Part shown: piece after piece, positions 9,119-57,047 of the stretch | Numbering within the stretch: the stretch's first letter is position 1 | Layout: each line of letters starts with the position of its first letter | IMG/VR virus record: IMGVR_UViG_3300023084_000010 | Coordinates: 25,381-89,380 of that record | From: a virus | Strand: one strand, 5' to 3' | DNA: 64,000 nt | Made by a program: the position numbers and the translations under genes | Notes under the pieces: model-generated | Seen by the model: only the letters and a program-made list of their open reading frames with translations | The model's database searches: none | What the model was told of the DNA's origin: nothing

Positions 9119-9469
9119 TTACCACTTTCTACATGACCAATAACGAGCTTTCCACTTTGGACCTGGATTGTCGCAATTATGTCTAGCACGGAAACTTTTA
9201 CGTCTTTTCGGATTAGACTTCTTAATACGCATATTAGGATCACCAAAGTTTACTTTTACAACATTGCCTTTATCGTTTTTAACGTAAACTTTAAATTTCT
9301 TCACGTCACCACGCATTGGCTTGTTTAGTTTAACTTTACGTCCTTGATACTCTGCTTCGAATACACCTTCTTCTTCTGCATATCCTAGTTCGCCAAACTC
9401 TTCGTGAAAGTCTTGTGTATCTTCTAACGTAATTTCTTCGTTAAGTTGTGTAAATTCATAAATCTTCAT
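9119..9469 (-). CDS. Virion-type protein, first gene of late operon
   Basis: 116 residues. The leader MKIYEFTQLNEE is followed by an acidic part and a basic C-terminal half with KKFKVYVKNDKG, FRARHNCDNPGP and KARYWSCRKW. The C-terminal Cys pair with RYWSC is a motif I recall from marine T4-like phages (function unknown). It is the first gene of a tightly packed operon running to 4840. Its ribosome binding site (AAGGG) lies in the right arm of a 10-bp hairpin whose loop holds the late promoter, which implies late-only translation. Confidence 0.6.
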   Translation of the reverse strand: MKIYEFTQLNEEITLEDTQDFHEEFGELGYAEEEGVFEAEYQGRKVKLNKPMRGDVKKFKVYVKNDKGNVVKVNFGDPNMRIKKSNPKRRKSFRARHNCDNPGPKWKARYWSCRKW

Positions 9470-9473
9470 AAAA

Positions 9474-9516
9474 ACACCCTTGGTAATAGTCGTTAGTACT
9501 ATTTATCCAAGGGTGT
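9474..9516 (-). promoter_or_regulatory. RBS-occluding hairpin with late promoter in its loop; also terminator-like
   Basis: A perfect 10-bp inverted repeat (ACACCCTTGG at 9507-9516 on the minus strand pairs with CCAAGGGTGT at 9474-9483). The 23-nt loop contains GATAAATA. The right arm includes the AAGGG ribosome binding site of the gene at 9469 and is followed by TTTTT, so in read-through RNA it could terminate transcription or hide the site. RNA started at the late promoter (expected near 9494) lacks the left arm. Confidence 0.75.
9500..9507 (-). promoter_or_regulatory. T4-type late promoter (GATAAATA) inside hairpin loop
   Basis: GATAAATA on the minus strand, 31 nt before the ATG at 9469, within the loop of the hairpin at 9474-9516. 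Confidence 0.8.
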
Positions 9517-9533
9517 AAAGTTTTTAGTAAAAC

Positions 9534-13768: not shown

Positions 13769-13792
13769 TTCTATAACTCCTTAATATAAGTG

Positions 13793-13800
13793 TATTTATC
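13793..13800 (-). promoter_or_regulatory. T4-type late promoter (GATAAATA)
   Basis: Minus-strand GATAAATA, 25 nt before the ATG at 13768, directly after the terminator at 13807-13836. Confidence 0.8.
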
Positions 13801-13806
13801 TAGCCA

Positions 13807-13836
13807 ACAAAAAAGCCCCGACTAGCGAGGCTTTTA
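13807..13836 (-). terminator. Rho-independent terminator
   Basis: Minus strand: AAAAGCCTCG-CTAGT-CGGGGCTTTTTT, a 10-bp stem with one G-U pair and a T tract. It ends transcription of 13859-14095. Confidence 0.85.
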
Positions 13837-13858
13837 AGTTTAAACGTTTTGTTTAATA

Positions 13859-14336: not shown

Positions 14337-14365
14337 AATACTACTCCTATCATTATAGTAGTATT
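14337..14365 (-). promoter_or_regulatory. RBS-occluding hairpin overlapping a late promoter
   Basis: Minus-strand AATACTAC (14358-14365) pairs perfectly with GTAGTATT (14337-14344); the 13-nt loop and stem hold AGGAGTAG, the ribosome binding site of the gene at 14336. The left arm overlaps the end of the late promoter, so an RNA started about 6 nt downstream (near 14356) loses it. Confidence 0.65.
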
Positions 14366-14369
14366 TATT
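14362..14369 (-). promoter_or_regulatory. T4-type late promoter variant (AATAAATA)
   Basis: Minus-strand AATAAATA, 25 nt before the ATG at 14336. Confidence 0.7.
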
Positions 14370-15072: not shown

Positions 15073-17275
15073 CAACTACTTCCAACCTAACAGCCGTAAT
15101 GTTATCACCGAACAATAGGATTTTTGCTAGTGGCTTTTTAATTTGTTCGTTAATCAATCTACCCATAGGTCTTGCACCCATTGTTTCAGTAAATCCATTA
15201 TTTGTTAGCCAAGTAAGAACAGTGTTATTCCAATGTATTGATATATTTCTATCAGTTAACATTGTTCTTAGTTCGTTTAAGAACTTAACAGTAATGTCTC
15301 TCATCAGAGTTTTGTCTAGTTTTGTAAACTGTACAATAGCATCTAGTCTATTGCGGAACTCTGGAGAGAAGAAACGTTTAACTGCTTCTTCACTGGCTGC
15401 ACTATTGTCATTATCGCCAAAACCAATTGTATTACGTTCAGCATCACGTGCACCTAAGTTACTAGTCATAATAACAATAGCATTACGAGCACTTACACTT
15501 TTGCCTTCACTGTTAGTAATCATACCATTGTCCATAAGTTGTAACATTACGTTACTAACATCAGGGTGTGCTTTTTCAATTTCGTCCAGTAGTAGGATAC
15601 AGTTAGGATTTTCTTCAAGTTTGTTGACTAGTAAGCCACCTCCTTGACCACCTTCACCGTATCCTACATACCCTGGGGGAGCACCGATAAGTTTAGCAAC
15701 TGTGTGACGTTCTTGGTATTCACTCATATCAAAACGTACAAGCGGCATACTCATTGCATCACTTAATTGTTTTGCTGTTTCAGTTTTACCAACACCTGTA
15801 GGGCCTGTAAACAAATAACAGCCGATTGGTTTACTAGGATCTTTCAGTCCAGCTTTAGCAATATAAATGCTATCTGCAAGTCTAGTAATAGCTTCGTCTT
15901 GACCAAATACTTTCTTTTTAACAACTGCCTCAATGTCTACAGGCTTCTCCTGTTTGTACTCACTGTCTTTTGTAAGTACTAGCTGGTCTACAGGAATACG
16001 TGTCATCTTAGCAACTTCATAACGAATATCATCTAAGTCTAGTACACTTTTACGCATCTCTGCTGGCTGTAACCGCTGACGTGCAGCCGCTGCATCCAAT
16101 ACATCAAATGCCTTGTCTGGCAAGTGTTTGTTGTGCCAGTATTGATGTGTCAAGTCTACTGCACCATGTAGTGCTTCTTTTGTATATGCTAGTTCGTGGA
16201 ATAGTTCATACACTGGAATACTTGCTTCGATAATTCTCTTAGCATCAGCAGGGCTTGGTTCTGGAACATCGACTTTATAAAAGCGACGATTAAGTGCTTT
16301 ATCTTTTTCAAAGTGTTCTCTGTATTCTTCGTATGTTGTCGAACCAATACAACGTAAGTTACCTTTTTGCAGTGCTGGCTTCAACAAGTTAGCAACATCC
16401 ATTGCACCTTGTCCTGCGCTACCTGCACCCATAATCATGTGAATTTCGTCGATAAACAAGATAGCATCATCACGCTTTTCTAAAATGTTTAATACATCTT
16501 TAAGACGTTCTTCAAAGTCACCTCTAAACTTAGTGCCTGCAAGTAGTGCACCAATATCTAAACTATAAATTGTATTGTCTTTAATAACTTCTGGAACTCT
16601 GTCTTCGTTAATTAAATGTGCTAAACCTTCTGCAATAGCAGTTTTACCAACGCCTGATTCACCTACAAGTATAACATTGTTCTTTTTACGACGAGCAATA
16701 GTTTGTACTAGTTTTTCTAGTTCATCTTCACGTCCGATCATAGGATCAATAATGCCATCTGCCGCTTGTTCGTTTAAATTGTCGCAGAACTTACGCAGCA
16801 TACGTTCTGCTTTGGCAGGTTTTGTTTTTGACTCATCCATATCTTGTTCTTGCACTGCAGGGTTCTGAATAAATTGTACTAATTGTTCTCTGCTAATATC
16901 AAACTGTTTTAACAAATGCACGGCTGCACTTGTATCTTCTGTTAATATACTAATTAACAAATCTTTAGCATTGATATTTTGTCTGCCGTTGAACAATGCT
17001 TGTGTGAATGCACGATTAAACACACGCTCTAACATTTGCGTCTTTTTAGGATCTTGTACTTCTGGTAATGGTGTTACTTCTTTTTCTAAGTACTGATAAA
17101 TTAATGCTTTTAACTGTGCAGGCTCTTTGCCCAAGTCATATAATATATCTTCAATTTCTTCTTGTTCTAGCAAAATTGCAAGTAGATGTTCTAGTGTAAC
17201 ATATTCGTGTTTATACTCACGAGTAAGTTGATATACACGCTCTACTATGTGTTCTATTCTATCATTTTGCGACAT
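15044..17275 (-). CDS. clpA: ClpA-type AAA+ unfoldase with ClpP-docking loop
   Basis: 743 residues, close to E. coli ClpA (758). It has an N-domain (about 1-145), D1 with Walker A GESGVGKT (205-212) and Walker B ILFIDEIH, pore loop around GTKFRG, and D2 with Walker A GPTGVGKT (491-498), Walker B LLLDEIEKAH (561-570) and sensor region around GARPMGR (700-706). Between D2 segments is IGF (617-619) in the position of the ClpA/ClpX loop that docks on ClpP. It lacks the long coiled-coil middle domain of ClpB. It should feed substrates to host ClpP, since no clpP is in the window. It has its own early-type promoter and a GAGGAA ribosome binding site. Confidence 0.93.
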   Translation of the reverse strand: MSQNDRIEHIVERVYQLTREYKHEYVTLEHLLAILLEQEEIEDILYDLGKEPAQLKALIYQYLEKEVTPLPEVQDPKKTQMLERVFNRAFTQALFNGRQNINAKDLLISILTEDTSAAVHLLKQFDISREQLVQFIQNPAVQEQDMDESKTKPAKAERMLRKFCDNLNEQAADGIIDPMIGREDELEKLVQTIARRKKNNVILVGESGVGKTAIAEGLAHLINEDRVPEVIKDNTIYSLDIGALLAGTKFRGDFEERLKDVLNILEKRDDAILFIDEIHMIMGAGSAGQGAMDVANLLKPALQKGNLRCIGSTTYEEYREHFEKDKALNRRFYKVDVPEPSPADAKRIIEASIPVYELFHELAYTKEALHGAVDLTHQYWHNKHLPDKAFDVLDAAAARQRLQPAEMRKSVLDLDDIRYEVAKMTRIPVDQLVLTKDSEYKQEKPVDIEAVVKKKVFGQDEAITRLADSIYIAKAGLKDPSKPIGCYLFTGPTGVGKTETAKQLSDAMSMPLVRFDMSEYQERHTVAKLIGAPPGYVGYGEGGQGGGLLVNKLEENPNCILLLDEIEKAHPDVSNVMLQLMDNGMITNSEGKSVSARNAIVIMTSNLGARDAERNTIGFGDNDNSAASEEAVKRFFSPEFRNRLDAIVQFTKLDKTLMRDITVKFLNELRTMLTDRNISIHWNNTVLTWLTNNGFTETMGARPMGRLINEQIKKPLAKILLFGDNITAVRLEVVDDKIHIRTA

Positions 17276-49037: not shown

Positions 49038-52000
49038 TTACGCTTGTGATTCTGACCAAGTAATACGTCCTGATGCACTAAACGGTTGGCTTGCACCAAT
49101 ACCACCAGTGTCAACAACACTAACAGCAACAGATATAACGTCTGGACCATTCGGGAACGTACCGTTACCACCTAATATACTATTACCTAAGTCAATGATG
49201 TCTCCCAAACTAAAGTTTGAAGCGTTTGACAAACGTTTACCTGTACTATCAGTACTACCACCTGCAGCACGGAAACTAAACACTTCTGTACCGCCTGTAA
49301 TAATATCACCTGCTTCGTGTTTAATAAGTTGTGATAGTGACGGGTTAGCAACGTTTTCCCATTCGATACTTGACAAGTCACCGTTTAGGATTAGTTTAAC
49401 TTCACAGTCGTGTGTTAGAATCAAACCAACTTCATTTAGTTTCAACTGCATTCTGTTGATAATGTCTCTTTCGCCTAAGTTTCCTGACAAGTTACTGTCA
49501 ACACTTGGAGCAAGTCTGAGCGACACTAACGGGATAACATCAGTACCTAGGTTAACGTCATCGTCACCGCCACCGGATGCTGGAGCACCAAGAGATACTG
49601 CAGTACCACTTGCTACTGTTGGATAAATGGCAGGATAACTTCTAGACTTACCAATATAAATGTAAACATAGAAAGTACTACCTGAGAAACCTGTGTAATC
49701 TACTTCATCACCGTCTAGTTCTCCGCCAGTTGTATACAGTTTCAAACCGCTATAGAACTTGCCTGAATCGCTACTACTAAATGGGATTCTTCTCCAGAAA
49801 TCATACTGTCTAGATCTCCAATCATATTGATAAAACCACTCAGTGTTACCGGTTGTTGTAGCAGTATTTGATTCACCGTTTGTAAACGATAGTGATTTAG
49901 ACGGAGCAGTAAATAAGTATGCCTTATCGTCGTCGAACGTACCGTCCATAATAACCGATGTACCCCAGTGGAACAGTGTCGGTGCGTATGTTGGATTTTG
50001 TCCATTTTCAATTTCGTACTTAGCAGGCAAGTTACCTGAACGCATATACGCTTCGTCTAGTCTGTTGTTGTGAATAAACTCGTGTACATACTTAACATGT
50101 CCGTGTGCATCTTTAAATCCAAATCTAATTTTACCAGCACCATACCAACTGTAGTCCATATATGCCATTTGAATTTTATTAATGTCTAATAAAAATCCTT
50201 TTTGACCTGTACCATCGCACGGATCAATATTCCATTGAGGTTGTGGTACTCTAACGTCTTCAGTTTTAGTTAAAATTGCACCGCTTGTACTTACACCTTT
50301 AAATTGTGGTTGTACATACATTTCGTTTTTGGCTGCAATTTTAGTTACTTTATAGCTTTGTCCGCGAATAACAACATAGTCTCCTACACTCAACTGTCCA
50401 CTAAAATCACTTGAATTGTCACCGCTAACTCTGCCGCTATTATTAACTAGTGTACTTGTACCACTTAACTGTGTAGTAGATGAACGTCTAACACAGTATA
50501 ATTGTGTACCGTCGTATTCAAAAAAGAAGCCGTTTTGTTGATCAAACATACCAGCACGTACATAAGCATCTGTGTATCCATTTAGATTATATTTAATAAT
50601 GCCGCTTGGAACACTACTAGTAGGTGCTTGTGTCATACCATATGTAAATCTGAAATCATCTAAAATTCCTGATACTGTTTTTAGTCCATTATATGCAGGA
50701 TCTGATGCATCTTTAACAGTAATAGCCGACCCAACACGCAATCTGTGTGGATACTTTGTAGTTGCTGTTGCAGTGTTTGCAGGATAATCTTCAATATCAA
50801 CGATACCGTACATTACTGAGTGATTGCCGCAGAAGTAGAATAATTCTTCTGGTGCATCTGTTGGTACTGTAAATGTAATTGTCCCGCTATCTGTACGTGA
50901 TCCTGTTACACCGTCAGTATATTCTCCATAATATGTACCTGAACTATAGTTATCGCCTGAATCTGTTGAGAAGTAGAACGGATGTCCAGTTGCAGTAACA
51001 TTAAATGTATACGTTGCGCCTCTGTATAATGTTAATATTGGATTATCGCCTTGTATCTCAGTGAACTGCCAAGAAACTGATCCATCATTTGCAACGTTGT
51101 ATGTTTCATTTGGCGCAGTTTGTCCTGCAGCACCTGATAAATTATCAAATGTGATAGGGGGATTAAAGTTAATCGCAAGTGATGTTTGAATACCTTTACC
51201 TGACTGATATCTAAAATACTTACGAGTTTGTCTTGTAACTTGTGAGAAAGGACTCGTACCTGCAGCAATTTCAACACCACCGTCGAATGGTCTATGCACT
51301 GAATAGCCATCTGGTTTAGCATAAACTTTTGTTTCTAAGAAGTGTTTTGTTGCAGCGTTTGTTATATCATACTGTCTATCAACTGTCATTTTACTATCAT
51401 CTGAAATAGATGTAATAGTTCTTTCTATTAGTTGACCAGGCGTACTACTATTGTCTTTAACATAAATTTTATCGCCTACTTTAAAGTAACGTTTGAACAG
51501 TGTTTCTGTACCTTCGATAATATTTGAACCATTTTCTACTGCAACTGTACCAATTGCTTCTGCAATACCTGCGACATTTGAAGTACTAAGTTTATGTGTA
51601 CCTGTACCTGCTGCTAATTCGATAATGTTATCTCTATTAAGAGCATCTTGTTCAGTTGGAGCAAACTGAAGGAATTGTTCATCTACTACTACAGCGTAGT
51701 ATGTACTACCGTTTGTTAAGTTAGTTAAGTCTGGGTTTCCATTACTATCGTATAAAACTGCAGTACCGGTAATTAATGTATGATCGCCGCCAGCTGCAAT
51801 TTGTATTGTCCCGTCTGTGTTGGCAGTAGTAGCATCTATGTCAAGTTGTGCACCGAAGATTTTGTTTGCAACTTGGAATGTAAATGTATCTTCAGTTGAA
51901 GCAGTTGTTGTATATGTTCCGTCAATAACGCCCAATTCTGCTGCAGTTACAAATTCAAAATCACCAGTACCTTGGTTTGTTAAGTTAATTTGTACACCGT

Positions 52001-54989
52001 TTTCTTCTAGTGCAATTCTGTTATCAGTAATAGCATTTGCAGTGTATGCGTTTCCAGCAACTAAGTTTGGATAAATGTAGTTTGTATCAAAATCTGTTAA
52101 CATTTGAACCATTAAGTTATCAAAATCAGTACTACTATTAAATGCAGTATCACTTTCGCCGACCATCCAAACTAATCCAAATTCAATTATATCTTTCCAG
52201 TAATAGTTACCATTCCAATAACTATACCAATATGTATTAGCATTAGTCGAATAAGTCATACCTGTATTTGAAGTGTATACATTCCAATCTGAGTTGTTAA
52301 AGAAATGACCATTCATATAACAAAGAGATGGTCCTCCACTACGAACATGTTTAAACCAAGTTGTTGACCATCTATAGTCATTTCCGTTAATTGTATTACT
52401 GCGGTTATTACTTGTTGAATATGTTTGCATACTACCTGGCGATGGTAACCCAAATCCGTCACGTAGATAACCATACCAGTATTCACTAGTAGTTTGTCTA
52501 TTAGACTCACGTGTCCAGAAGTAATAAGGTAGTGTAGAGTTTGCAGACCAGTCTGTAGCAACCATCATATTATTTCTATCTGCTAGGTTAGTACCTTGTA
52601 AAATATTATATGGTCTTGTACTACTAAAGTTTCCAACATTTAAGTTACTCGATGGCGGGTTTAGAGAACCATAATTACTGTACCATACAGTATTAGTTGT
52701 ATAGTATAAATCATAATAGTCCATTGCTGAGTTACCACTACTTACACCACTGTTGAACACACGTGTTGAATTAGGATTACTCGCAGTAACCATATTCTGC
52801 AAGCCTGCAGTATTTGCGGCCATATATGTGTTAATACTGTCATTCAATACACTCCAACTGTTTACGTTAGTACCATCTACACCTGCTGATGAATATGGAA
52901 TAATTTGTCCAGATGTTGATGTTGGTAATGTACCGCCGTTAATTTCTGTAACAGTAACTTCAGTACCACTAATTAATCCATGATCTTCTAAATAAAATGT
53001 ATTAGCTAAACTATTACGTCTTTCTCCAGTAAATGTATATTGACCTTTTGCTTCAGATAGTCTAACACCTGACAATTTAAATCTGTCTTCTGATATTACA
53101 TCGACATTATAAGAACCATCTGCTAAAGAAGATAAATTAGTTGTATTTGTTGGACTAGTACTACCAACATGTTGTAATATACTATTTGATCCTGTATAGC
53201 CGCCGTATGTTCCGCTATTAGTAGCAATTGAAATTGTGTCACCTGTTGTTAATCCGTGATCTTCAATAAAGAACGAATCACCTTCTGCATCTTCGACCAT
53301 TGGAACCCAGAATTCATATAAATCTGATGGATAATAGTTATAAGTTCCTGTATAATAGTATTTCGAACCGTGTATTTGACCACTCGATCCACTCAGGTAA
53401 ATATAACCAGTATAATTAGCAGTACTAAATCTTGTAAAGTCTTCAAAGATGTTATAACGATTTGCAGTGTTCACACCGCCCGATGATATAAAGTTAAAGT
53501 TACTACTTGCATATGGTGAATATGTGTAGTTAGTACCAATGTAGTACATCATATAATAAAAAGAACCAGGAGCATTTCTAGCAAATGGAACCCATTTTAC
53601 AGTTTGTCCACTTTGATATCCTAATCCGTATCCTCCGTTAAATGTGGATCTGAGATCCCATCCAGATCCAGTCCCATTATATGCATTTCTTGTATAAGAT
53701 TGTGCTTGATAACTACGATAACGAACATAAACATATTTGATCTCATACGCTAAGTGTAAAGAGTGTCTACCGAAATAACTAGTACCTGCACTACTAAAGC
53801 TAATTGCAGCACCATTATAACTAGATGTCAACTGAATGTTGTTATCATCTACTTTTTTAATATAATATGCTTCAAATTGACCTAATCCGCCGATTGCTTC
53901 GTCTGATACCGGAGGCATATAGAACACAACATCGTTATCTCTTAGTTGGTGATTTGTCCATTGAATAGAATTGTTTGAAGTGTTAACTTGAGTACTATCA
54001 AACTTTGTACTCCACCATGATCTCATTTGTTTTGTTTCGGTTTGTGTATAGTCAGGACTTACACTAAATTGTAATGTTTCTTCTTCATCGACGTAAGGAC
54101 GACCGTCTGGTGCAGTATCTGTTGTTATGTATTCAAATTTAACCGATTTACCGCCAACACTGTTTAGCAAATAGAATTGGTTACCAGTGACAAACCCATG
54201 TGGATCGGATGTAGTAACTGTAATTGTACTCGGTTCAGCTAGGTCGGTTGTAATACCAGCTGCCGGATCAAACGGAATTTGAGACCCTGTATAGAACGTA
54301 CCCGGAGTAACTGTAGAATAAATGTTACCAATGTTTCCTGTTACTCGTTGTGCAGCATTTGCTCTGAATGTAAAACTTGTTGTAGTTGGAACACTAGCAA
54401 TCAAGAATTTACCTTCTGCTGTTCTACTAGATAGACCTTGCACATCGATGGGAGTACCAACTGGTAACGAATGATCTTCGCCTGTGATAACAGTGATAAT
54501 TCTTGAACCGTCAACTGCATTTATACTCAAAACATCGGCAATGGCTAAATCCCCGTCTGAGATATAAAATGAAGGAACGTTGTTAGATAGTTCAAGTGTT
54601 TCCCACTTAGTTGGCTGTAGACCATATTCAAAGTCAGTATCGATCAAGTTCTCTGGTGCACTAACACGAATTTTATGCACTGGATCTAAGAATGAATCAT
54701 CAATATTCATCTTAGCATTACCTTCGTCTACAATGATTTGTAAACGATCATCGTCTGTCATAGTGCCTAATGCATTAACATCCATGTCTAGGTTTATAGT
54801 TGTTTCTTCTAAAACACCGTCCCATGTAACTGTGCCGCCAGCTGCTGGATCAGCAAAGTTGTAGATAATGTCATTTGTTGTTACGTTTGTTATCAAAAAG
54901 ATGTCATCTAATTTCATGAACTCTTTAATAACAATTGTACCAGCGGCTACGTTAAATGTGTATCCGTAGTTTATAAGTTTCTTAGCCAT
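49038..54989 (-). CDS. Very large virion structural protein with cupredoxin-like domain
   Basis: 1983 residues, the largest complete gene. The N-terminal part (LDPVHKIRVSAPENLIDTDF, then YGLQPTKWETLEL) is, from memory, typical of giant structural proteins in T4-like marine phages. The middle holds many Tyr/Ser/Asn-rich segments. At about residues 1300-1400 is a cupredoxin-like domain with GHPFYF and FYFCGNHSVMYG (His-Cys-His-Met). The C-terminal part looks like a baseplate- or fibre-associated domain. GGAGG ribosome binding site. Probably a long fibre or baseplate-associated protein. Confidence 0.7.
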   Translation of the reverse strand: MAKKLINYGYTFNVAAGTIVIKEFMKLDDIFLITNVTTNDIIYNFADPAAGGTVTWDGVLEETTINLDMDVNALGTMTDDDRLQIIVDEGNAKMNIDDSFLDPVHKIRVSAPENLIDTDFEYGLQPTKWETLELSNNVPSFYISDGDLAIADVLSINAVDGSRIITVITGEDHSLPVGTPIDVQGLSSRTAEGKFLIASVPTTTSFTFRANAAQRVTGNIGNIYSTVTPGTFYTGSQIPFDPAAGITTDLAEPSTITVTTSDPHGFVTGNQFYLLNSVGGKSVKFEYITTDTAPDGRPYVDEEETLQFSVSPDYTQTETKQMRSWWSTKFDSTQVNTSNNSIQWTNHQLRDNDVVFYMPPVSDEAIGGLGQFEAYYIKKVDDNNIQLTSSYNGAAISFSSAGTSYFGRHSLHLAYEIKYVYVRYRSYQAQSYTRNAYNGTGSGWDLRSTFNGGYGLGYQSGQTVKWVPFARNAPGSFYYMMYYIGTNYTYSPYASSNFNFISSGGVNTANRYNIFEDFTRFSTANYTGYIYLSGSSGQIHGSKYYYTGTYNYYPSDLYEFWVPMVEDAEGDSFFIEDHGLTTGDTISIATNSGTYGGYTGSNSILQHVGSTSPTNTTNLSSLADGSYNVDVISEDRFKLSGVRLSEAKGQYTFTGERRNSLANTFYLEDHGLISGTEVTVTEINGGTLPTSTSGQIIPYSSAGVDGTNVNSWSVLNDSINTYMAANTAGLQNMVTASNPNSTRVFNSGVSSGNSAMDYYDLYYTTNTVWYSNYGSLNPPSSNLNVGNFSSTRPYNILQGTNLADRNNMMVATDWSANSTLPYYFWTRESNRQTTSEYWYGYLRDGFGLPSPGSMQTYSTSNNRSNTINGNDYRWSTTWFKHVRSGGPSLCYMNGHFFNNSDWNVYTSNTGMTYSTNANTYWYSYWNGNYYWKDIIEFGLVWMVGESDTAFNSSTDFDNLMVQMLTDFDTNYIYPNLVAGNAYTANAITDNRIALEENGVQINLTNQGTGDFEFVTAAELGVIDGTYTTTASTEDTFTFQVANKIFGAQLDIDATTANTDGTIQIAAGGDHTLITGTAVLYDSNGNPDLTNLTNGSTYYAVVVDEQFLQFAPTEQDALNRDNIIELAAGTGTHKLSTSNVAGIAEAIGTVAVENGSNIIEGTETLFKRYFKVGDKIYVKDNSSTPGQLIERTITSISDDSKMTVDRQYDITNAATKHFLETKVYAKPDGYSVHRPFDGGVEIAAGTSPFSQVTRQTRKYFRYQSGKGIQTSLAINFNPPITFDNLSGAAGQTAPNETYNVANDGSVSWQFTEIQGDNPILTLYRGATYTFNVTATGHPFYFSTDSGDNYSSGTYYGEYTDGVTGSRTDSGTITFTVPTDAPEELFYFCGNHSVMYGIVDIEDYPANTATATTKYPHRLRVGSAITVKDASDPAYNGLKTVSGILDDFRFTYGMTQAPTSSVPSGIIKYNLNGYTDAYVRAGMFDQQNGFFFEYDGTQLYCVRRSSTTQLSGTSTLVNNSGRVSGDNSSDFSGQLSVGDYVVIRGQSYKVTKIAAKNEMYVQPQFKGVSTSGAILTKTEDVRVPQPQWNIDPCDGTGQKGFLLDINKIQMAYMDYSWYGAGKIRFGFKDAHGHVKYVHEFIHNNRLDEAYMRSGNLPAKYEIENGQNPTYAPTLFHWGTSVIMDGTFDDDKAYLFTAPSKSLSFTNGESNTATTTGNTEWFYQYDWRSRQYDFWRRIPFSSSDSGKFYSGLKLYTTGGELDGDEVDYTGFSGSTFYVYIYIGKSRSYPAIYPTVASGTAVSLGAPASGGGDDDVNLGTDVIPLVSLRLAPSVDSNLSGNLGERDIINRMQLKLNEVGLILTHDCEVKLILNGDLSSIEWENVANPSLSQLIKHEAGDIITGGTEVFSFRAAGGSTDSTGKRLSNASNFSLGDIIDLGNSILGGNGTFPNGPDVISVAVSVVDTGGIGASQPFSASGRITWSESQA

Positions 54990-54995
54990 ATTAAG

Positions 54996-55181
54996 TTATC
55001 CTCCAAGCGCAATTGCATATGCTACTGCTAATTTTTTTGACGCAAGATCTGCATCTAACTCCGTTGTGTTAATATTCGTTGCTACTTCCCACGCACCAGT
55101 TGAAGTACGATATACGTATGTAATACCGTTTAAACTATACGTGTCACCGTTTGATGGGTTTGCTGGAAAATTAAATGCCAT
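54996..55181 (-). CDS. Stand-alone fibre-leader module
   Basis: 61 residues, consisting almost only of the FPANPSNGDTYSLNGITYVY, then TGAWEV module that starts three of the larger adhesins. It starts 7 bp upstream of the giant structural gene. It has its own late promoter in the loop of an RBS-hiding hairpin. It could be an adaptor for fibre attachment. Confidence 0.65.
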   Translation of the reverse strand: MAFNFPANPSNGDTYSLNGITYVYRTSTGAWEVATNINTTELDADLASKKLAVAYAIALGG

Positions 55182-55186
55182 GCTTG

Positions 55187-55221
55187 CTCTCCGTTTTATT
55201 AAAAGTATTTATCACGGAAAG
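55187..55221 (-). promoter_or_regulatory. RBS-occluding hairpin with late promoter in its loop
   Basis: Minus-strand CTTTCCGT (55214-55221) pairs with ACGGAGAG (55187-55194) through 8 bp, one being G-U. The right arm contains the ribosome binding site GGAG of the gene at 55181 and the 19-nt loop holds GATAAATA. Confidence 0.65.
55206..55213 (-). promoter_or_regulatory. T4-type late promoter (GATAAATA) inside hairpin loop
   Basis: Minus-strand GATAAATA, 25 nt before the ATG at 55181. Confidence 0.8.
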
Positions 55222-55238
55222 ATGATAATGTAAATTAA

Positions 55239-57047
55239 TTAAACAGTTGTTTCACCAGCAGTTGATGATGCAAGATCTACATTTGTTGAAGGGAATGCTC
55301 TACCTGTGCCCCAAATAATTCTTACAGCACCTGGGCCACCATAACTGTTTGGACTGTTGCCAAAGCGACCGTAGCCTCCGCCGCCGTAACTACCCGCAAT
55401 GCCGTCGGCATTTGTGCTAACACTTGATCCTTTGGTGCCGTTAGGGCCACTGTTAACAGTTGTATAATAACCTACTTGACCACCGGAACCTGCGCCGCCG
55501 TTTCCGCCGTGACTGCCACTATAGGTTCCTGGGTTTGCACCTCTAGCACCGCTGGCACCTTCTCCGTACACGCCAACGCCACCACCACCGCCAGCGGTGT
55601 AGTCACCATAAGAGCCACCACCGCCTCCGCCGCCTGAACCAGCAGTTGCACTATAAAATGGATTTGCCGATCCAGTGCCGTAGCCACCTCTGCCACCATT
55701 ACCTGAGTACCCGCCAGCACCTCCTCCGCCAGGTTCAGTTCCTCCTGTTCCCCAAGTTCCATCACCGCCATTGCCACCGCCGTCTCCGGTGTAACTACCT
55801 CCGCCGCCAAATTGGCCAGCGCCGCTAAGACCTGTAGGAGGAATTCCGCCTCCTCCTTTGACAGTAGATGTGTTTATAAAATAACTATCACCGCCGTTAC
55901 ATGTGGAAAGATTGTCAGATCCAATACGACTACCACGTCTGCCTACGACAACTGTATACGATTGACCAGGAGTAACAGGAATATTATTTTTCCATCCTAG
56001 ACCGCCACCACCAGAACTAACAGAAGGAGTGTTTAGACCTGCACCGCCACCACCGATAGCAACTACACAAACACTAGTTACACCTTCTGGTGCAATCCAA
56101 CTATGTGTTCCTACTGTGTCAAATAATACACCACCCGGTGGGGCAGCGAATGCTAGGTCCAATGTAGAGGTAAAATATGCTGTGTTGATTCCGTCAGTTG
56201 CTGAAAATGTTATATCGAAACTACCAGCATTTGATTCATTTGTACTCGGTGTAATAGTGAAAACATTAGAATTAGCACCTGTTCCTTGACTAACTGTAGC
56301 TTGATTTGTTAAACCACTAGTTGTATATCCTATTGTAGTATCGAATCCCTCGGGATCGGTTACATTCAATGTTATTACTGTGGCTGTTCCATCTGTTGCT
56401 AATTGATATTCGCTTTCGGCACCTGAAATTGACGGGTTTTGGTTTATTAATGCAATTTGATACCACCCATTATTCCAGAAAAATAATCTGTCTGTGTCTT
56501 CTGCAAATGCCATGTCTCCAATATTGTTATTAGTTTCTGGAAACAAATCTTGTTGAGAATAAACTGTAACTGCACCACCATTGGCTTGTGGAGTCACAAA
56601 ACTAAAATTACCTGATCCGTCTGTTTGTAATACTTGTCCGTTTGTACCGTCTGTAATTCCTAAATCTGTCAGTGTAGATGGAATACTAGTTGACAATGCA
56701 TAAGGTGCTACACTAGGCACATTTGGTGGAGTATATGTAAAAACACCTGTTGTATTATTATAAGAAAGTGCTCCGTTTCCAGAAGGTTCAGATGCAGTTA
56801 CAATGCTTAAATCTGTTAAAGCAATGCCTCCTCCGCCGCCAGCACTGGATTTTTCTTTCCATTCAATCGTACTAGTTGTATCATTCTCAACTGCAATATA
56901 AGTAATCTCATTTGATTCATTATACCAAATTTCTCCTTCTATAGGATTAGAAGGCTGTACAGCACTGACTGTTGTTTTTTTGCCGCCGCCAGATATTCCT
57001 TTAATAGCTGCTTTTTCTTGCTTATATGTTTTTAGTGATCTTCCCAT
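55239..57047 (-). CDS. Adhesin with glycine-rich C-terminal domain
   Basis: 602 residues. N-terminus MGRSLKTYKQEKAAIKGISGG, shared with 57060-58535; then AVQPSNPIEGEIWYN, an Ig-like domain (about 210-300) and from about 310 a domain starting SWIAPEGVTSVCVVAIGGGG with many GGGG runs. Such Gly-rich domains resemble polyglycine-II sandwich adhesins of T-even gp38 type, which bind outer-membrane proteins. The closing VRIIWGTGRAFPSTNV may be a capping motif. A receptor-binding role is inferred. Confidence 0.7.
   Translation of the reverse strand: MGRSLKTYKQEKAAIKGISGGGKKTTVSAVQPSNPIEGEIWYNESNEITYIAVENDTTSTIEWKEKSSAGGGGGIALTDLSIVTASEPSGNGALSYNNTTGVFTYTPPNVPSVAPYALSTSIPSTLTDLGITDGTNGQVLQTDGSGNFSFVTPQANGGAVTVYSQQDLFPETNNNIGDMAFAEDTDRLFFWNNGWYQIALINQNPSISGAESEYQLATDGTATVITLNVTDPEGFDTTIGYTTSGLTNQATVSQGTGANSNVFTITPSTNESNAGSFDITFSATDGINTAYFTSTLDLAFAAPPGGVLFDTVGTHSWIAPEGVTSVCVVAIGGGGAGLNTPSVSSGGGGLGWKNNIPVTPGQSYTVVVGRRGSRIGSDNLSTCNGGDSYFINTSTVKGGGGIPPTGLSGAGQFGGGGSYTGDGGGNGGDGTWGTGGTEPGGGGAGGYSGNGGRGGYGTGSANPFYSATAGSGGGGGGGSYGDYTAGGGGGVGVYGEGASGARGANPGTYSGSHGGNGGAGSGGQVGYYTTVNSGPNGTKGSSVSTNADGIAGSYGGGGYGRFGNSPNSYGGPGAVRIIWGTGRAFPSTNVDLASSTAGETTV

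Follow-up and report, generated by a model that had tools for sequence, protein, structure and literature searches.

A hairpin around a late promoter as a candidate read-through filter before a 61-residue gene of an environmental T4-like phage

Introduction

Several genes of phage T4 carry a structure that hides the Shine-Dalgarno sequence (SD) in early read-through RNA and that is bypassed by transcription from a late promoter. This arrangement is established for e, soc, 49 and I-TevI (PMC3014915, PMC2988022), and in gene e the repression in the longer RNA is about 100-fold (PMC3014915). A similar arrangement has been described for I-TevII, I-TevIII, segB and Aeh1 mobE (PMC3014915, PMC2988022). 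The T4 leaders, as we read them, fall into two layouts: in layout 1 the 3' half of the promoter forms part of the 5' arm (e, 49, I-TevI and segB), and in layout 2 the whole promoter lies in the loop (I-TevII). Here we analyze a leader in an environmental virus that has layout 2, together with two further leaders of the same genome, one of each layout.

The hairpin and the genes around it

The window, by which we mean the whole stretch of 64,000 nucleotides analyzed, comprises bases 25381-89380 of an 89,380-base IMG/VR virus record. Its gene content, called by a simple script, includes PhoH, clamp-loader and numerous tail and baseplate-type genes, and a megablast search against deposited phages gave no match to a close relative. 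The locus is built from the following features:

55239..57047, minus strand: glycine-rich, tail-fibre-like gene upstream of the hairpin, on the same strand
55214..55221, minus strand: 5' arm CTTTCCGT, upstream of the late promoter (sequence and fold)
55206..55213, minus strand: GATAAATA, putative late promoter -10 element, in the loop (motif positions in the window)
55187..55194, minus strand: 3' arm ACGGAGAG with the Shine-Dalgarno GGAG (sequence; duplex energy -11.3 kcal/mol)
54996..55181, minus strand: 61-residue gene (MAFNFPANPSNGDTYSLNGITYVY...), from the ORF and its translation, with an 80% identical orthologue in G006
49038..54989, minus strand: 1983-residue virion structural gene (PHROG 5838, E 1.2e-176)

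Direct reading gives the 61-residue gene the minus-strand leader CTTTCCGT-GATAAATA-CTTTTAATAAA-ACGGAGAG-CAAGC-ATG. The stem has 8 bp with one G-U and joins 55221-55214 to 55194-55187; GGAG (55192-55189), the SD of the gene, lies within the 3' arm, and the 19-nt loop begins with GATAAATA (55213-55206). A sequence-only reading of this DNA had described both arms with their one G-U pair, the GGAG hidden in the stem and the place of the promoter in the loop, and the letters agree on every point. The minimum-free-energy fold of the leader includes exactly this 8-bp stem, and an 81-nt fold has a z of -1.8, with equally stable folds in 10 of 200 shuffles. The ORF starts with the ATG at 55181, and the 1983-residue gene begins 6 nt past the ORF end, its GGAGG overlapping the end of the 61-residue gene. 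The 61-residue protein has no family match in PHROGs or Pfam. Differing small genes that precede the giant structural gene (L004, L008, L009, L018, L020, L030 and window 54996) share a similar tail, in the forms AIALGG, SIALS, AIALS, SIALGN and AVALG, which is perhaps an assembly or coupling signal.

ATAAATA occurs 12 times in the window, as against 28 expected from shuffles, and lies shortly upstream of a same-strand gene in 12/12 cases in the window and 13/15 in the whole contig. This placement bears out the earlier assignment of the motif as a late promoter, and judged by it ATAAATA is a real promoter signal of the T4 late type; T4-like cyanophages use this motif, NATAAATA, as their late promoter (PMC2984593). 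The depletion of the heptamer in the window looks as if it had been purged everywhere except upstream of genes. Neither T4 gp55 nor two PHROG sigma models matched anything in the partial contigs, but the controls were silent too, and the negative is uninformative. Late transcripts start roughly one helical turn past the box (PMC2988020), so late RNA would be without the 5' arm, to whose 3' side GATAAATA directly adjoins.

Upstream of the 61-residue gene the visible genes, with products of 602, 491 and 1809 residues, are fibre-type; such genes fill the 9 kb to the contig end, and the origin of the upstream RNA lies off the contig. A search for an intrinsic terminator gave none, and no terminator-like site was found between the 55239..57047 gene and the hairpin. 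Because the upstream genes are fibre-type and no terminator-like site separates them from the 61-residue gene, read-through RNA into this gene would probably itself be late RNA, and as such does not fit the prevention of premature synthesis of virion parts that had been proposed for the hairpin: the visible upstream genes on the same strand are all tail-fibre-type, and early read-through is not evident.

Stem strength relative to chance

For the energy null, the promoter and leader were held fixed and the 45 bases upstream were shuffled. Three runs against this null put the 61-residue leader (E -11.3) at P 0.043-0.069. Of the shuffled upstream flanks 1.4% contain a contiguous helix of 8 bp or more over GGAG, as do 0.55% of random genomic 59-mers, and by helix count such a helix in at least one of 12 late leaders is a ~7-16% event. 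Opening the SD is predicted to cost 5.1 kcal/mol in the read-through RNA versus 1.1 in the late RNA, and in this geometry the SD would be covered solely in RNA starting upstream; a partition-function test of SD opening against shuffled flanks gives P 0.09. When upstream parts and SD regions were exchanged in a 12 x 12 swap, the true pairing of the 61-residue leader topped its own row and column. The uncorrected P values span 0.014-0.09, and the 61-residue case is not significant once 12 leaders are corrected for; the stem is barely above chance.

Conservation of the hairpin, which would support membership of the T4-type class but does not strictly define it, was not found in the related leaders. 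The sole orthologue of the 61-residue protein (80% identical, G006/L008) carries TATAAATA at the equivalent place, with the promoter kept and the stem absent, its SD region pairing only at the level of shuffles (E -5.1, P 0.33). An SD-covering stem is also absent from the late leaders directly before the giant-gene homologues in L023, L029 and L032. At about 15185-15254 of L023, ahead of a 247-residue gene that lies downstream of the giant one, the order AAAGTAAGGC / GCCTTACTTTTT (terminator-like) / TATAAATA / AAAAAGTAAGG offers three segments with two exclusive pairings, a terminator or an SD-hiding stem (duplex E -20.5).

Better supported leaders of the same genome

The sequence-only reading had counted three such hairpins. 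It named neither of the other two, which we take to be those before the 116- and 55-residue genes:

9475..9517, minus strand: ACACCCTTGG/CCAAGGGTGT hairpin in the leader of the 116-residue gene, its loop containing GATAAATA (E -18.5, P 0.004-0.01)
9119..9469, minus strand: conserved 116-residue phage protein (PHROG 7595, unknown function)
14337..14368, minus strand: ATACTACT/AGTAGTAT stem in the leader of the 55-residue gene, its 5' arm including part of the promoter, as in T4 gene e

The 116-residue leader shares the layout of the 61-residue one (layout 2, as in I-TevII); the 55-residue leader departs from it, with the 3' half of the promoter in the stem (layout 1, as in T4 e and I-TevI).

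In the 116-residue leader a 10-bp perfect stem and an inner 6-bp stem enclose GATAAATA and hide AAGGG. The partition function puts the SD opening cost at 15.6 in the read-through RNA versus 4.1 in the late RNA (P 0.02). The pair ACACCCTTGG/CCAAGGGTGT around GATAAATA is kept in G000, G003 and G010, the G010 version having GCACCCTTGG and a longer stem, and the inner stem AATAGT/ACTATT becomes AATACT/AGTATT in relatives, a two-sided change. TTTTT follows the hairpin, and a weak terminator role for it is conceivable.

The 55-residue family has the arms AGTAATCACCTTT/AAAGGTGATTACT, CGGCTCC/GGAGCCG, ATTGGCTC/GAGCCAAT, GGGCTCC/GGAGCCC and GACTCC/GGAGTC, each pair with the promoter between its arms, in one case as the variant GCTAAATA. 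Covariation exceeds shuffles in a ten-leader subset, a biased alignment of seven leaders picked by eye for a stem and three without one; its unbiased version, a permutation that takes in each of the family's 24 non-redundant leaders, also favors the true pairing (P 0.0002). Since many members have no stem, the stem is gained and lost within the family. Compensatory change replaces the stem sequences across leaders L118-L185, where the late promoter lies in the arms or between them. In several 55-residue leaders the upstream gene has its stop codon within AATAAATA, and its coding sequence supplies the 5' arm.

The flank-shuffle null is blind to stems whose 5' arm lies inside the promoter, as in the 55-residue gene and T4 e, 49 and I-TevI, and separate swap, permutation and type-A tests were therefore run. 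The type-A test flagged no T4 gene and is thus unvalidated; the called-gene set and the choice of the nearest promoter probably omit or mis-assign the known T4 cases. Both the 116- and the 55-residue leader thus far exceed the 61-residue site in support, being conserved in relatives, where their stems show compensatory changes.

Other hairpins with a similar disposition were seen. In G012 (L211), GCGAAATCC/GGATTTTGC at 15531-15566 enclose GATAAATA (duplex E -14.4, P 0.01) and precede a 115-residue ORF (MYTYQCNTIRVIDGNTVDAIIDLGF...) that is thermonuclease-like by eye. A third family (MPIYAQSSTLRNL...; G004 - 24737, a reverse-strand coordinate, and L131 3570) has a stem that hides an AGGA-type SD and a loop that contains TATAAATA (E -11.6 and -10.0, P 0.08-0.16). 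At 13769-13845 (minus strand) of the window, before a 108-residue gene, a terminator-like GCCTCG/CGGGGC-TTTTTT lies directly upstream of the late promoter, another way to separate upstream RNA from late RNA.

Late leaders as a set

From its three cases the sequence-only reading had argued for a genome-wide rule, in which late promoters generally lie in loops of SD-hiding stems that guard against premature virion synthesis. Among the 12 late leaders in the contig, the 116-residue leader alone is individually clear (P about 0.004), and none of the ten besides it and the 61-residue leader reaches P 0.05 by flank shuffling. In a permutation test that re-pairs upstream parts with the SD regions of other leaders, the P value for the entire contig is 0.07; once the 116- and 55-residue genes are taken out, the rest matches the permuted leaders (mean energy -6.37 versus -6.53, P 0.60), which leaves the rule unsupported.

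The relatives entered the analysis as loci retrieved with a small number of query genes, and do not represent a random sample. Their 148 further non-redundant late leaders, which lie outside the families of the query genes, include 12 at P<=0.05, with about 7 expected, and 18 with E<=-10 versus 10.7 permuted (P 0.014). Decoy leaders without a promoter, whose motifs were filtered for overlap with ATAAATA, reach P<=0.05 in 10/212 and E<=-10 in 22/212. The relatives' late leaders show a small excess, far from a rule, and the scan of the genome and its relatives against shuffled leaders that had been proposed as a check yields no more than this. The pooled 185 non-redundant leaders do differ from permutation (P 0.0002), and this figure and the excess among the 148 are what speaks for a rule; the pooled signal, however, comes mostly from two gene families over-sampled by the searches, 9-10 of the 12 leaders here show nothing, and T4 leaders taken together show no enrichment (P 0.22), despite the proven single T4 cases. 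We regard the rule as very improbable, since shuffles and permutations have already largely refuted it. The device belongs to individual genes, and it is clear at those of 116 and 55 residues. The divergent late pairs T4 51/26 and 4/53 share a palindromic promoter region and so give apparent SD-hiding hairpins, a confounder for scans of this kind.

Explanations for the 61-residue hairpin

Our preferred reading, held tentatively and at just under an even chance, is that the hairpin is a candidate gene-specific filter of the T4 type against read-through RNA; the analysis shows the sequence, the promoter signal and the predicted change in SD accessibility, and from these we infer promoter use, the existence of the read-through RNA and the biological relevance of the effect. 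RNA reading through from the upstream fibre genes would contain both arms, with the SD of the 61-residue gene locked in the 8-bp stem, and would be translated poorly at this gene. RNA from GATAAATA would start ~6-7 nt past the promoter box, without the 5' arm and with the SD open. Translation of the 61-residue gene would be tied, at most, to its own late promoter, and that of the giant gene perhaps too, by coupling. This reading draws on the exact geometry, the contrast in SD opening (5.1 versus 1.1), the helix frequencies (P 0.014 and 0.0055) and the best place in the swap matrix, along with the lack of a terminator-like site, the promoter placement, the T4 precedent and the two well-supported genes of this genome. 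Weighing against it are the energy P, the partition-function P of 0.09, the stemless orthologue, the leaders in L023, L029 and L032 and the virion genes upstream. The stem may instead be chance complementarity, the promoter falling in the loop merely because promoters sit just upstream of SDs, and this is quite possible, if somewhat short of an even chance. A frequency of ~1.4% per leader is here multiplied by 12 leaders with GA-rich SDs, the contig minus its two clear genes equals permutation, the orthologue is stemless and decoys reach the same cut-offs at the rates given above; the helix, however, is fully contiguous and best in both row and column of the swap matrix, and two well-supported hairpins of the same class in this genome raise the prior.

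Two further roles for the hairpin deserve mention. It could separate one late transcript from another, not early from late, blocking translation of the 61-residue gene on the long tail-fibre mRNA, and through coupling that of the giant structural gene as well, so that the dose would be set solely by the promoter of this leader; we consider this unlikely. Still less probable is a role in RNA processing or stability at the boundary of the fibre operon instead of SD hiding. The short intergenic gap between two same-strand virion genes would suit such a role, but there is no terminator-like site and no U-run after the stem, and the stem is aligned to the SD, not to the gap.

If the filter is real, a virion gene in an environmental T4-like phage would join those known to carry the translational timing device of T4. 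The more useful result is that the device is kept at particular genes, the 116- and 55-residue families, where stem sequences are replaced by compensatory change, and not across all late genes.

Comparison with known T4-type systems

The late RNA of T4 e, 49, I-TevI and segB, like that predicted for the 61-residue site, is without the 5' part of the inhibitory stem; in these genes the 5' arm consists of the 3' half of the promoter and the next bases, and here the 61-residue gene differs. Aeh1 mobE, listed alongside the T4 endonucleases, has a similarly arranged promoter and RBS-sequestering RNA structure (PMC2988022), but is a homing endonuclease gene and no virion gene. T4 I-TevII, an intron homing endonuclease in nrdD, like the 61-residue site has its late promoter TATAAATA in the loop (PMC2988022), the 5' arm upstream of the promoter (CCTCG/CGAGG) and the SD in the 3' arm. 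I-TevII lies inside an early/middle transcription unit, where early read-through is expected, whereas virion genes lie upstream of the 61-residue site. The kind of device is already known, and by its sequence the 61-residue site is a plausible candidate member of it.
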